Shown here in pieces: positions 1-5,993 of a stretch of DNA of 34,815 nucleotides. This DNA comes from Planctomycetales bacterium (GTDB lineage Bacteria; Planctomycetota; Planctomycetia; Isosphaerales; Isosphaeraceae), in contig DAIDHX010000045.1 in the NCBI GenBank assembly GCA_027451885.1, forward strand, positions 1 through 34,815. Reading direction: 5' to 3'. A model generated the notes under the pieces. It worked only from the letters and a program-made list of their open reading frames with translations. It was not told the DNA's origin and did not search any database. Both the position numbers and the translations under genes were made by a program. Numbering within the stretch: the stretch's first letter is position 1; every line of letters starts with the position of its first letter.

Positions 1-30
1 GTGCATGCCCGCGATCGAGAGAATTCGGGC

Positions 31-65
<35 letters not shown>

Positions 66-117
66 AGAGGGCGGAGGTAACGCGACCTAAACACTCCCGT
101 TGCCCCCGCTACTCGAC

Positions 118-1874: not shown

Positions 1875-2013
1875 GCGCGCCAACGGGCTCAGTTCGCGGC
1901 GGCTCCGGCCCGCCCGCGCTGCGATTCTCGCTGGGTGAAACCAGCCCAGCGTGAAAGCATCCCAGGGAAGAAATCAAACAGCTAACGGCCTCTGTTTGAC
2001 GTGGGCGGCGCTC

Positions 2014-3339
2014 ATGCTCCTCGAATTTCGCCTCGGTAACTTCCGGTCCTATGCCGCGGAGAAGCGTTTTAGCAGGGTTGCGGGATCCGGGAAGGAGCTT
2101 CCCGCGAACACGGTGACTGTTGAGGGGTTCAACCGCTCCCCGCTGCCACGGAGCGCAGTGATTTACGGAGCCAATGCTTCGGGAAAGAGCAACCTTGTCC
2201 AGGCGTTTGCCTTCTTCCGGCACTTCGTGCTTCACTCCTCCGAGACGCGACAAGAGGGGGACTGGATACCTGTGTACCCCTTCTTGCTCGACCCGAAACT
2301 CGCCAGGGATCCGAGTCACTTCGAGATGACGTTTCTCCTGGGGGGCGTGCGCCATCAATATGGGTTCGTCGTGTCTCGGGAGCGTGTGCACGAGGAATGG
2401 CTGACGGTTTATCCCAGGGGTAAGCCGCAGGAATGGTTCCACCGGACCGTGGACCTGAAGGGGAAATCCACATGGGCCTGGAGCCGGACTCACCTCCGCG
2501 GAGCCAAATTGCAGCTCGCCGAGCGTACCCGGGAGAACGCCCTTTTTCTTTCGGTCGCGGCCCAGTGGAACCATACGCAGATCAAACCGGTCTATCACGG
2601 GTTCCGCGGCAAGCTCAAGGTCTTGCGCCGAGAGACCAACGTGATGGGACACACGCGAGCCCAGCTCCTCAGCAACCGGACGTTTCGCGAGTGGCTAACC
2701 AGGGTCCTGAAGGCGGCTGATATGGGAATCTGCCGGGTGCTCGCCAGGGAGAGCAAGAGCCATAAGGATCGTTTCCGTTTTCCGAGTGAGATGCCGGCCG
2801 AAATGGGGAGCCTGCTTTCGGATGAGTCCCCGGGCAAGCCCTGGGTGGAGGTTCGAACCACCCACCGCTTGCCTGGCACGCGCGGCGAGGTTGAGTGGGA
2901 CCTGGATCAGGAGTCGGACGGTACACAGCGGATGCTCGCGCTCCTTGGACCAATCCACGACGCGCTTCGGGATGGGGCGGTCCTGGTCATGGACGAGCTA
3001 GACACAATCCTACATGCTTATATGACCATGGCGCTTGTTCAGCTCTTCAGCCGTCCCACGACAAACCGAGGAAACGCCCAGCTTGTTTTCACGACGCACG
3101 ACACGAGCCTGTTGGACCCGACCCTCTTCCGCCGAGATCAGATCTGGTTCACTTCAAAGGACGGCTCAGGCCAGACGGATCTCTATTCGCTCGAGGACTT
3201 CAGCCCGAGGAAAGGAGAGGCGCTCCAGAAGGGGTATCTGGCTGGGAGGTACGGTGGGATCCCGGACCTTGTCGACCTTGAGTTTTCTCAAATTCAGAAG
3301 CCGCAGGGTGAGGCGGAACTCGTGAGCCCGGAAGGATGA
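2014..3339 (+). CDS. AAA family ATPase, RloA-like (AAA_15/AAA_21), predicted defence ATPase
   Basis: The 441-aa product starts with MLLEFRLGNFRSYAAEK, the usual beta-strand opening of overcoming-lysogeny/RecF-like ATPases of the AAA_15/AAA_21 group. This is why ATG 2014 is preferred over the in-frame GTG at 1951. Walker A is GANASGKS at residues 52-59. A signature-like segment SDGTQR sits at 301-306. Walker B is VLVMDELD at 323-330, and FTTHDTSLLD follows as the switch/H-loop. These are ABC-type ATPase features, intact and in order. The next gene encodes a RloB-type protein, and ATPases of this group are typically paired with RloB. By analogy with other AAA15 plus TOPRIM pairs such as PARIS, the ATPase may sense or scaffold an effector, but no activity can be read from sequence. 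Confidence 0.85.
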   Translation: MLLEFRLGNFRSYAAEKRFSRVAGSGKELPANTVTVEGFNRSPLPRSAVIYGANASGKSNLVQAFAFFRHFVLHSSETRQEGDWIPVYPFLLDPKLARDPSHFEMTFLLGGVRHQYGFVVSRERVHEEWLTVYPRGKPQEWFHRTVDLKGKSTWAWSRTHLRGAKLQLAERTRENALFLSVAAQWNHTQIKPVYHGFRGKLKVLRRETNVMGHTRAQLLSNRTFREWLTRVLKAADMGICRVLARESKSHKDRFRFPSEMPAEMGSLLSDESPGKPWVEVRTTHRLPGTRGEVEWDLDQESDGTQRMLALLGPIHDALRDGAVLVMDELDTILHAYMTMALVQLFSRPTTNRGNAQLVFTTHDTSLLDPTLFRRDQIWFTSKDGSGQTDLYSLEDFSPRKGEALQKGYLAGRYGGIPDLVDLEFSQIQKPQGEAELVSPEG

Positions 3340-3411
3340 ACCCGCCCGGCGCCTGGGTGTTCGGTTGCATGAAACGGGCATTGTTGCGGGCGTTGTTGGG
3401 GGGTGTATCGA

Positions 3412-4245
3412 GTGGGCAGGCGATCGCGCGTGAGACATGAGAGCGAGCTTGGCCGAAGCCAGCCATCACGAAGGCCGCGCGAGTGCATCCTGGTCGTCTG
3501 CGAGGGCGAGCAAATGGAGCCCAATTACCTCAAGGCTTCACGCAAGCGTATCAATCTGAGCACGCTCGACGCGGAAATCGTCGGTGAAGCGGCCGAGATT
3601 TTGGGCGTGGTGGAGGGAGCCAGGCGGCTGAAGGAGGAGCGTGAGGCCGCGTCGAGCGAGAGCGTGCGTCTTGCTCCCTGCGACGAGATCTGGCGCGTGG
3701 TCGACACCGAGAGGCGGAATGATAATCCATCCCGGGAGCGAGGCGTCGACCGCGCGTCCGCGCTCGGGTTCCGTCTCGCCTGGTCCAATCCATGCTTCGA
3801 TTACTGGCTACTGTTGCACTTTGAGCGGATCGGCCGCATTTTCGATGGATTTGCCGTACTCCGGCCGTTCCTGAGCAAGCACATCCCTCGCTATGAGAAG
3901 AGCAAGGACTACTCCAGGCAGCTTGCTCCGCGTCTCCCTACCGCAATCGAAAACTCCAGACACATCCATCGGGCGCAGTGGCAAGATACCCCGCGGCAGA
4001 TCGACTGTAATCCCGCCACCACTGGCCGCGAGCTCGTCGAACGGCTTATGGATGTTGCTGGGATCACGATCGCTGAATATCAGGCTCGTTACCCGATGCC
4101 AGGGACAAAGCCGAAGCAGACGAAGCTGAAGAGGACGAAGCGTGCCCGTCGTTCCTGGCTCGGAGCTTCTCGGTGTTCCTGGAGCGTCCTTGGGCTACCT
4201 GATGCGGCCGGTTGCGTGGGCTGGATTCGTGCGGCATCGAGCTGA
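3412..4245 (+). CDS. RloB-like protein (TOPRIM-like nuclease candidate)
   Basis: The product (about 277 aa) has the RloB hallmarks in order: a basic N-terminus (RRSRVRHESELGRSQPSRRPRE), the strand CILVVCEGEQMEPNYL with the acidic residue of CEGE, then EIWRVVDTERRND as a second acidic strand end, and NPCFDYWLLLHFE. The first two match a TOPRIM-like arrangement of a conserved Glu followed by Asp; the last is typical of the family. Start at GTG 3412 is chosen because a run of G at 3398-3403 sits 8 nt upstream; GTG 3403 is possible. It begins 72 bases after the ATPase gene on the same strand, so co-expression is likely. The last 40 or so residues are Lys/Arg/Ser/Trp-rich and unlike the family; a late frameshift or a natural tail are both possible. 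Confidence 0.8.
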   Translation: MGRRSRVRHESELGRSQPSRRPRECILVVCEGEQMEPNYLKASRKRINLSTLDAEIVGEAAEILGVVEGARRLKEEREAASSESVRLAPCDEIWRVVDTERRNDNPSRERGVDRASALGFRLAWSNPCFDYWLLLHFERIGRIFDGFAVLRPFLSKHIPRYEKSKDYSRQLAPRLPTAIENSRHIHRAQWQDTPRQIDCNPATTGRELVERLMDVAGITIAEYQARYPMPGTKPKQTKLKRTKRARRSWLGASRCSWSVLGLPDAAGCVGWIRAASS

Positions 4246-4492
4246 GCAAAAACGACCTACAGCGAGGCTGGAGGCATACCTGGCAAGCATTTTCACCACG
4301 CGGAGGAAAGGGCGCTGGCGTGGGTGACGGAAAGACGGGGCGCCTGGTGTGGGTTGTCGCGTGGGTGGGGCCGAATCTGCCGCGTGGGGCGGTCCGTTCC
4401 GCGCTCTTTCACCCCGCGGTCTTGACGCTGGCGGGATTTGGCCCAAACTAGTACTTGCGCTCTGGTTGGGCGCACTTTGAAGGAGATTGCGT

Positions 4493-5047
4493 ATGCGACT
4501 TCGTCTCGCGGCCGCGATCCCCGTCGTGGTGGCAACCATCGCAGTGGTGGGCGCCAGCAGGGCGGGAGATCCTGTGAAGTCTGGCCTCGGGATCGGTGAC
4601 ATTTGCGTTCCATTTGATGTGGACGACGTCACCGGGCCGAACAAGGGCACGACTCTCTGCTATCGCTGAAGGTACGGTTCCTCCCCGGTCGTTTGCGTGT
4701 TCGCCCGCGCAACGTCCGAACCCTTGGCCAGTCTGGTCAAGCAGATCGATGAGAAAATAGGCGAAAACAGCAAGCTCAAGGCGTTCGTCGTCTTGCTTGC
4801 GACGGACAGCAAGAAGGCTTCGAGCGAATTGTCCGAGCTCGCGAAGAAGCACGAGATCAAGCACGTCCCGCTCACGATGCTCGGCGAACCCGACGGTCCC
4901 CCCCAGTACGACCTCACGAAAGAGGCGGGAATCACGGTCCTGATGTGGCTCGATGGCAAGGTGAAGGTGAACCACGCCTACAAGGGCGAGTTGACCGACA
5001 AGGACATTCGCACCATCGTGGCTGACATTCCCAGGATTCTCGAGTAA
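4493..5047 (+). CDS. Exported thioredoxin-like protein with in-frame TGA: candidate CxxU selenoprotein (otherwise a nonsense-interrupted gene)
   Basis: Read from ATG 4493 (AGGAG at 4481-4485), the frame encodes a signal peptide (MRLRLAAAIPVVVATIAVVGASRAG) and a short domain up to TTLCYR, then a TGA at 4667-4669. It continues without another stop for 125 codons to TAA at 5045-5047. Continuing through TGA gives LCYR-x-RYGSSPVVCVFAR, then a thioredoxin-like alpha/beta domain ending in KVNHAYKGELTDKDIRTIVADIPRILE. From memory, planctomycete exported relatives have LCYRCKxG...PVVxVFAR, so the TGA falls on the second cysteine of a CxxC redox motif (C56, position 59). A SECIS-like hairpin follows at the right distance. 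The full length would be 184 residues. The downstream part has no plausible start or ribosome binding site of its own. Alternatives are a TGC/TGT-to-TGA nonsense mutation or a sequencing error. The gene ends at a strong terminator. Confidence 0.75.
4687..4717 (+). promoter_or_regulatory. Bacterial SECIS-like hairpin after the in-frame TGA
   Basis: The RNA can fold as follows: G4687-G4688 pair with C4716-C4717, a U-U mismatch follows, 4690-4693 (CGUU) pair with 4711-4714 (AACG), U4694 lies opposite G4709-C4710, 4695-4697 (GCG) pair with 4706-4708 (CGC), and the apical loop is UGUUCGCC (4698-4705). The stem starts 17 nt after the TGA and the loop 28 nt after it. Bacterial SECIS elements place the loop about 16-37 nt after UGA, with a G in the first two loop positions. 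The E. coli fdhF element has an unpaired U three pairs below a loop containing GU, as here. The structure is also protein-coding, so chance pairing in GC-rich DNA must be excluded. Confidence 0.5.
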
Positions 5048-5138: not shown

Positions 5139-5288
5139 TGCGCAGCGGTGCGGGTTCGCGTGGTTTGCTGGCGGCGGTTGCCTGGTTTGGGCGTGGAAGC
5201 TGGGGGATTGCCCTGGCGTGGCGGCGGGGGGATAATCCGGGGCGTTGCGGCCTGAGAGAGAATGGGATTCTCGTGTGATTGAGTGTGC

Positions 5289-5993
5289 ATGCCAAGGGCA
5301 GCCCGATCGATTCCCGGCGGTTACGCGTACCACGTGTTGTGCTGTGGGCAGGGCGCGGATGTGGTTTTTCATGACGCGAGCGAGTTTGCCGCGTTTCAGG
5401 GATTGATGGCGGAGGCGTCGCTGCGTGTGGGGTTGCCTGTGGCGGCGTACTGTTTGCTGCCGAGCCAGGTTCGTCTTGTGCTTTTGCCGCGTGGCGATGG
5501 CGTGGTGAGCCGCTGGATGCACTGGTTGTTGACGACGCATGCGAGCCGTTACCGGCAGCGGCATGGCACGCGTGGGCCGATCTGGCGCGGGCGGTTCCGG
5601 GCGTTTCCGATCGAGACGGGGGAGCCGCTGGCGGCTGTGATCCGCCATGTGGAGCGGAATCCGCGGTGTGCGGGGCTGGTGCCGCGGGCGGAGGATTGGC
5701 GGTGGTCGAGCCTGTGCTGGCGGAGCGCGCCCGAGCATGCGCCCGTGCGGCTTGAGCGGATCCCGCAGGTGGATCAGCCGGGCTGGGGGGCGAAGGTGGA
5801 ACGGGGGCTGTGCGAGGCGGAGCTTGAACAGATCGCGGTCTCGATCCGCCGCGGCCGACCATTTGGTTCCTCGTCCTGGGTGCGAGAGACGGTTTTGAGG
5901 CTGGGGCTGGAATCGAGCGTGCGTCCCCGCGGCCGCCCGCGCCTGGAAGCGGGGGAGAGTCTGGACACGCGCGACCGCCTGGGAACGCGCTAG
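5289..5993 (+). CDS. IS200-like / REP-associated transposase homologue with all catalytic residues replaced
   Basis: The 234-aa product aligns along its length with Y1-type transposases of the RAYT group common in planctomycetes: PRAARSIPGGYAYHVL at the start, YCLLPSQVRLVLLP in the middle, RGRFRAFPIET, VIRHVERNPRCAGLVPRAEDWRWSSL, and RGRPFGSSSW...LGLESSVRPRGRPR at the end. The usual HUH motif (NHWH) is SQVR here, so the histidines are Gln60 and Arg62. The Tyr of RYVERN is His120. The frame is nevertheless uninterrupted, which suggests it is kept for something other than transposition, for instance DNA binding, or that it decayed recently by substitutions only. I saw no clear flanking REP palindromes. 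It stands 82 bases upstream of ribF. The start at ATG 5289 lacks a clear ribosome binding site. Confidence 0.8.
   Translation: MPRAARSIPGGYAYHVLCCGQGADVVFHDASEFAAFQGLMAEASLRVGLPVAAYCLLPSQVRLVLLPRGDGVVSRWMHWLLTTHASRYRQRHGTRGPIWRGRFRAFPIETGEPLAAVIRHVERNPRCAGLVPRAEDWRWSSLCWRSAPEHAPVRLERIPQVDQPGWGAKVERGLCEAELEQIAVSIRRGRPFGSSSWVRETVLRLGLESSVRPRGRPRLEAGESLDTRDRLGTR

Follow-up and report, generated by a model that had tools for sequence, protein, structure and literature searches.

Several features of bacterial SECIS elements are well described. Their apical loop is located 16-37 nt from the UGA (PMC13188914), and the bSECISearch consensus expects a G in the first two loop positions, an upper stem of 4-16 bp and an energy of at most -7.5 kcal/mol; the bSECIS consensus model is also treated in PMC10778597. 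The SECIS of E. coli fdhF possesses a bulged U, U17, in its 5' stem (PMC8659212). FdhA is one of the verified selenoprotein families (PMC13188914), and the use of selenocysteine (Sec) by planctomycetes is already known (PMC4807772). According to reviews, some bacterial selenoprotein genes have SECIS elements which break the consensus model, and the nature of these elements is not stated there. Our literature search found no description of a two-hairpin or distant bacterial SECIS; this does not prove that none exists, and the original spacing experiments (Heider 1992) lay outside the search. In the genomes studied here, 11 FdhA genes, that of the source genome included, share the hairpin GUCGCC-GGUCU-GGCGAC after the Sec UGA, with the loop 18 nt away and no separate hairpin interposed. 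We take this planctomycete hairpin to be homologous in position to the SECIS of E. coli fdhF.

The window, which is the whole stretch of 34,815 nt that was analysed, contains a gene with a single in-frame TGA (Table 1). Our best explanation, to which we assign a probability of roughly 0.8, is that this gene encodes an exported selenoprotein of the thioredoxin/peroxiredoxin fold, and that its UGA is recoded through a two-part signal in which one hairpin (hairpin 2) would be the SelB site and another one (hairpin 1) a folded spacer. The explanation draws on the alternation of UGA and Cys, the Sec machinery, the conservation and covariation of hairpin 2 together with its FdhA-like motif, and the selection on the folding of hairpin 1, all of which are read from the sequences.

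Table 1. Features of the putative selenoprotein gene and of its predicted recoding signal, in window coordinates.
Feature	Position	Strand	Basis
Shine-Dalgarno-like AAGGAG, 7 nt 5' of the ATG	4480..4485	+	read from sequence
ORF of 184 residues, one in-frame TGA read through	4493..5047	+	translation
TGC, Cys56, partner Cys of the CxxU motif	4658..4660	+	homologue alignment
In-frame TGA, predicted Sec59, matched by Cys in homologues from other families	4667..4669	+	alignment
Hairpin 1, the hairpin of the earlier note plus one outer pair	4686..4718	+	folding, homologue comparison
Hairpin 2, CUUGGCC-AGUCU-GGUCAAG, near-invariant SelB-type stem-loop	4723..4741	+	conservation, covariation
Loop at the tip of hairpin 2, AGUCU (RG[U/G]YU in the family), 60 nt from the UGA to the loop start	4730..4734	+	sequence, FdhA match of the CC/GG-flanked loop

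The collected homologues comprise 49 distinct genes with the TGA, which are spread over the Planctomycetota and form 18 clusters at 75% nucleotide identity, and 62 genes without it (59 with Cys, 3 with Ala). Elsewhere the homologues carry Cys at this codon. Close homologues of the same family all carry the TGA at the same codon, and other families have either TGA or Cys, so that the in-frame UGA is aligned with a conserved, redox-type Cys. The homologue tree requires eight changes between the TGA and the Cys label, seven of them forced by well supported branches. SelB is present in 38 of the 42 genomes with a TGA gene and in 7 of the 39 which contain Cys forms only (Fisher p 1e-11, a value which ignores kinship and the incompleteness of the genomes, mostly draft MAGs). 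As some of the TGA-bearing genes, for example L021, also terminate in TGA, this codon is not reassigned. The source genome encodes a SelB scoring above the curated cut-off, a tRNA-Sec with the anticodon UCA and SelD, as well as a formate dehydrogenase FdhA with an in-frame TGA. Its SelA is found as two halves on two contigs of the draft assembly and for that reason scores below the cut-off; SelA, SelB, tRNA-Sec and SelD are thus all represented. From these comparisons the UGA is very probably a Sec codon.

Codons +19, +20, +21 and +23 after the UGA are synonymously invariant in the TGA genes, and these codons form hairpin 2 (family consensus CUUGRCC-RGUYU-GGYCAAG). The earlier note knew of one hairpin only; hairpin 2 lies directly 3' of it and is the better conserved of the two. 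Its Leu codon is TTG in 24 of 24 cases and its Ser codon AGT in 22 of 22, while TTG accounts for 11% of Leu and AGT for 3.5% of Ser in these genes. All 47 main-type TGA genes contain hairpin 2, in which the loop G never varies and the next base is U or G, whereas one apparent relic is seen among the 59 Cys genes. If any hairpin with an NG[G/U] loop is counted, it is found in 49 of 49 TGA genes and in 2 of 62 others, one of the latter being a chance match at 89 nt. The distance from the UGA to the loop of hairpin 2 is 60 nt, or 63-69 nt in three relatives. Codon shuffling resulted in a z of -2.35 for the TGA genes against -0.47 for the Cys genes. In the alignment of 47 sequences all cells are paired, and five of the eight pairs have changes on both sides; the covariation of 0.296, compared with 0.196 in shuffled alignments, was reached in none of 500 shuffles and exceeds all slid controls. 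Some of the compensations have a price in the protein: UUG/AAG to CUG/AGG (UUG..CAA to CUG..CAG) costs K to R, and UUG/GUC to UUC/GUG costs L to F. A further pairing, between an upstream CAAGGG and a CCCUUG near hairpin 2, was suggested by the first alignment and was rejected, being broken in several relatives.

The relic is a Cys gene (L121:1492-2040 on the minus strand, identical to L176:3025-3573) with a perfect hairpin 2, CUUGACC-GGUCU-GGUCAAG, 60 nt after its TGT. The L121 genome still has SelB, and the hairpin is plausibly a fossil SECIS after a recent switch from Sec to Cys.

The closest counterpart of hairpin 2 is the FdhA SECIS, which has the same tip, CC-RGUYU-GG, occurs in the same genome together with the same SelB, and is likewise located in the coding region 3' of the UGA. 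When a covariance model was built with hairpin 2 as sole input and no FdhA sequence, its best match was the FdhA SECIS in 11 of 11 FdhA loci. The two elements differ in the distance of the loop (60 nt against 18 nt), in the stem below the tip, which is unrelated, and in the interposed hairpin 1, which has no counterpart in FdhA. The loop of hairpin 2, like that of the planctomycete FdhA hairpin, has G-U, but neither stem has the bulged U of E. coli fdhF, and the two are therefore not of the fdhF type. Compared with the bSECISearch model, hairpin 2 agrees in all points except the spacing (its upper stem has 7-8 bp and, from the difference between two folds, an energy near -10 kcal/mol in the window copy), and a conserved hairpin is inserted between the UGA and the putative SelB hairpin. 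Because the spacing is 60 nt and not 16-37 nt, hairpin 2 is by its sequence assigned to the bacterial SECIS elements as a variant, not as a standard member. Neither the scan of the source genome with the hairpin 2 model nor an exact search of 45 genomes revealed a convincing second gene of such architecture; the nearest matches coincide with SelD or with motifs lacking a plausible in-frame TGA.

Two distant homologues with a CPVU motif (L145 and L146, family f64) possess a single hairpin with a GGU loop, 19 nt from the UGA, and no remote hairpin 2. This canonical arrangement is in keeping with a SelB hairpin that can change its position. The two genes provide a natural comparison of a near and a remote SECIS within one protein family.

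Hairpin 1 was the subject of the earlier note, which had described a 9-bp interrupted stem at 4687-4717, beginning 17 nt after the TGA (GG-CC, CGUU-AACG and GCG-CGC), with U4694 unpaired and an 8-nt loop UGUUCGCC (4698-4705) with G at position 2. All of this is present in the window copy. RNAfold gives -13.0 kcal/mol for 4687-4717 and prefers two further pairs, which reduces the loop to UUCGCC; the MFE fold spans 4676-4722 and thereby adjoins hairpin 2. The range 4660-4740, which had been proposed for the folding check, turned out to be unremarkable (z -1.31), and the shorter 4687-4717 is moderately better than chance (z -2.48; 4 of 200 dinucleotide shuffles fold as well). Under codon-preserving shuffles the window copy alone is borderline (p about 0.07) and the TGA homologues are clear: 48 TGA genes have a mean z of -2.32, with 73% at p<0.05, against -0.39 and 15% for 62 non-TGA genes (Mann-Whitney p 4e-10; control regions near zero). 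The evidence is thus strong only because the homologues are considered together. The expectation that Cys homologues lack the hairpin is borne out, as the excess folding is absent there. Compensatory changes, also anticipated, do occur in TGA relatives, but the covariation in the main register is modest to weak (3 of 500 shuffles as high). Most copies of hairpin 1 span roughly +13 to +52 relative to the UGA and stop at most a few nucleotides short of hairpin 2; in two f3 relatives (L062 and L063) the hairpin is less clear. Its loop and stem sequences differ or are unrelated between relatives, while the structure is retained in the TGA homologues. Judged from this comparison, hairpin 1 is real and under selection as a structure.

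The resemblance to E. coli fdhF and to SelB recognition, for which the loop G, the GU and the unpaired U had been cited, did not extend to the family. The loop G occurs in 10 of 43 relatives, and the unpaired U is likewise not conserved; the likeness is largely coincidental. With regard to the bSECIS consensus, the distance of 28 nt from the UGA to the loop lies within 16-37 nt, and G in the first two loop positions is a property of the window copy and not of the family. Because neither the loop G nor the bulged U is conserved, hairpin 1 was rejected as the sole SECIS. What stands of the claim that it supports recoding is that hairpin 1 forms part of the signal, occurring in TGA but not in Cys relatives; what is not supported is its role as a SelB-type element. 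On the sequence evidence the hairpin belongs to the Sec signal but is probably not the part that SelB reads.

We propose that the UGA is read as Sec within a CYRU redox motif and that the recoding is directed by the two hairpins, both inside the coding region. Hairpin 2 would offer the tip recognised by SelB, since it has the unvarying loop G with U or G after it and the tip of the FdhA SECIS, while the loop G and the bulged U of hairpin 1 vary among relatives. Hairpin 1, between the UGA and hairpin 2, would fold and shorten the 60-nt path, and the A site would then be within reach of SelB carrying Sec-tRNA on hairpin 2, as in FdhA, where the distance is 18 nt. From the geometry, the simplest reading of hairpin 1 is that of a folded spacer which places hairpin 2 at the short distance from the UGA that the FdhA hairpin has. 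The path is also shortened by the folding of shuffled sequences, so the effective folded distance does not discriminate, and it is the excess stability of hairpin 1 which argues for the spacer role. Against our explanation count the 60-nt spacing, the less clear hairpin 1 in L062 and L063, the L121 Cys gene with its hairpin 2, and the SelA in two pieces.

Of the other explanations, the one that survives best also places SelB on hairpin 2 and gives hairpin 1 an active role, either in ribosome stalling or as a second contact with SelB or the ribosome, instead of that of a passive spacer. We regard it as unlikely, though worth keeping in mind: the stability of hairpin 1 is selected and it adjoins hairpin 2 in many copies, but it has no conserved sequence, which is expected equally of a passive spacer and of a stability-dependent roadblock, so that the data do not separate the two. 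Distinctly less probable is the version of the earlier note, that hairpin 1 is the SelB-binding SECIS, with hairpin 2 then an accessory. The canonical distance of hairpin 1, its selected folding and the loop G and bulged U of the window copy speak for this version; however, the loops and stems of hairpin 1 are unrelated among relatives, the FdhA tip and the synonymous invariance belong to hairpin 2, which is retained in relatives from other families, and L145 and L146, which lack the remote hairpin 2, carry their GGU-loop hairpin at the near position.

Hairpin 2 could also be conserved for a reason other than Sec, as an operator, another RNA element, or through a constraint on protein or codons, and its exact copies are indeed essentially confined to this one gene across 45 genomes, as would be expected of a gene-specific regulatory site. 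We consider this very improbable, because hairpin 2 tracks the TGA and not the phylogeny over at least seven switches, is missing in Cys genes, even where the Cys paralogue forms a tandem with a TGA copy (in the pairs L062 and L163 it is found in the TGA copy and not in the Cys copy), has a tip equal to that of the FdhA SECIS, and is maintained by compensations that change amino acids. That the TGA truly stops translation or has decayed as a codon, and is followed by a pseudogene or a separately started protein, has its only support in an ORF starting at GTG 4697 and is the least credible explanation, given the same TGA at the active-site Cys codon in 49 homologues of many families, a protein conserved on both sides of it, the co-occurrence with SelB and a mean pLDDT of 90.7 for the read-through protein. 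In three further tandem pairs (L058, L059 and L133) both copies contain the TGA and hairpin 2. Just 5' of the UGA, in window 4637-4666, the TGA genes display synonymous conservation of the codons CCG at -10, CTC at -4 and CGC at -1.

Returning to the reading of hairpin 2 as SelB site and hairpin 1 as spacer, it seems rather probable, if less so than the reading for this gene, that the signal represents a distinct class of bacterial SECIS across the Planctomycetota, in which roughly 60 nt separate the UGA from the SelB hairpin and a dedicated hairpin of no fixed sequence acts as folded spacer. If so, the accepted spacing rule would be one of folded geometry and not of nucleotide count, and selenoprotein finders restricted to 16-37 nt would miss such genes. 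It would provide a concrete and evolutionarily supported case of a consensus-breaking SECIS, in which the SelB tip is kept, shifted 42 nt further, and the intervening RNA folded. How SelB spans the distance between UGA and hairpin, a long-standing question, would become directly testable.

The window protein shows no Pfam match reaching the gathering cut-off and no match in NCBIfam; members of its family match weakly to AhpC-TSA and deiodinase-related models, and a profile search against solved structures yielded no match. The AlphaFold2 model of the read-through protein, built with 34 homologues, aligns with 8t4c (Z 17.0, rmsd 2.2 over 137 residues), and Foldseek gives an E of 1e-7. The similarity is domain-wide, and the modelled protein is of the thioredoxin/peroxiredoxin fold. 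A hydrophobic stretch at the N-terminus, recognised by eye, suggests that it is likely exported. Cys56 is invariant in the 34 aligned homologues, as is position 59 with Sec or Cys, and we infer that CYRU is a redox active-site motif. Both fold and CxxU motif resemble the thioredoxin-like CxxU/UxxC selenoproteins (PMC13188914); in contrast to these, where the motif usually follows a strand, CYRU appears from the model to precede the strand 66-71. The catalogue of prokaryotic selenoprotein families counts 119 (PMC13188914), and among those having a Pfam or NCBIfam model none has one that matches the window protein. The best reading is a selenoprotein family absent from current catalogues; an earlier mention of the gene may exist in the supplement of PMC4807772. 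In a Cys59-type homologue from a Fuerstiella MAG (L162:3156-3158, JAQWOH010000002.1) an in-frame TGA takes the place of the first CxxC cysteine, giving UYRC instead of CYRC, and hairpin 2 is lacking. The codon may mark a second Sec position, or reflect a pseudogene or an error in the assembly.

The genes surrounding the selenoprotein gene are of a different kind. An AAA_21/AbiLi-type ATPase followed by an RloB/AbiLii-like gene (window 1951-4245) is located directly 5' of it, and the two are a candidate anti-phage pair. At window 29-117 the end of a group II intron RNA was identified (RF00029, 48.9 bits). Just 3' of the gene, at window 5283-5993, follows an ORF without a Pfam match which resembles by eye a REP-associated transposase.
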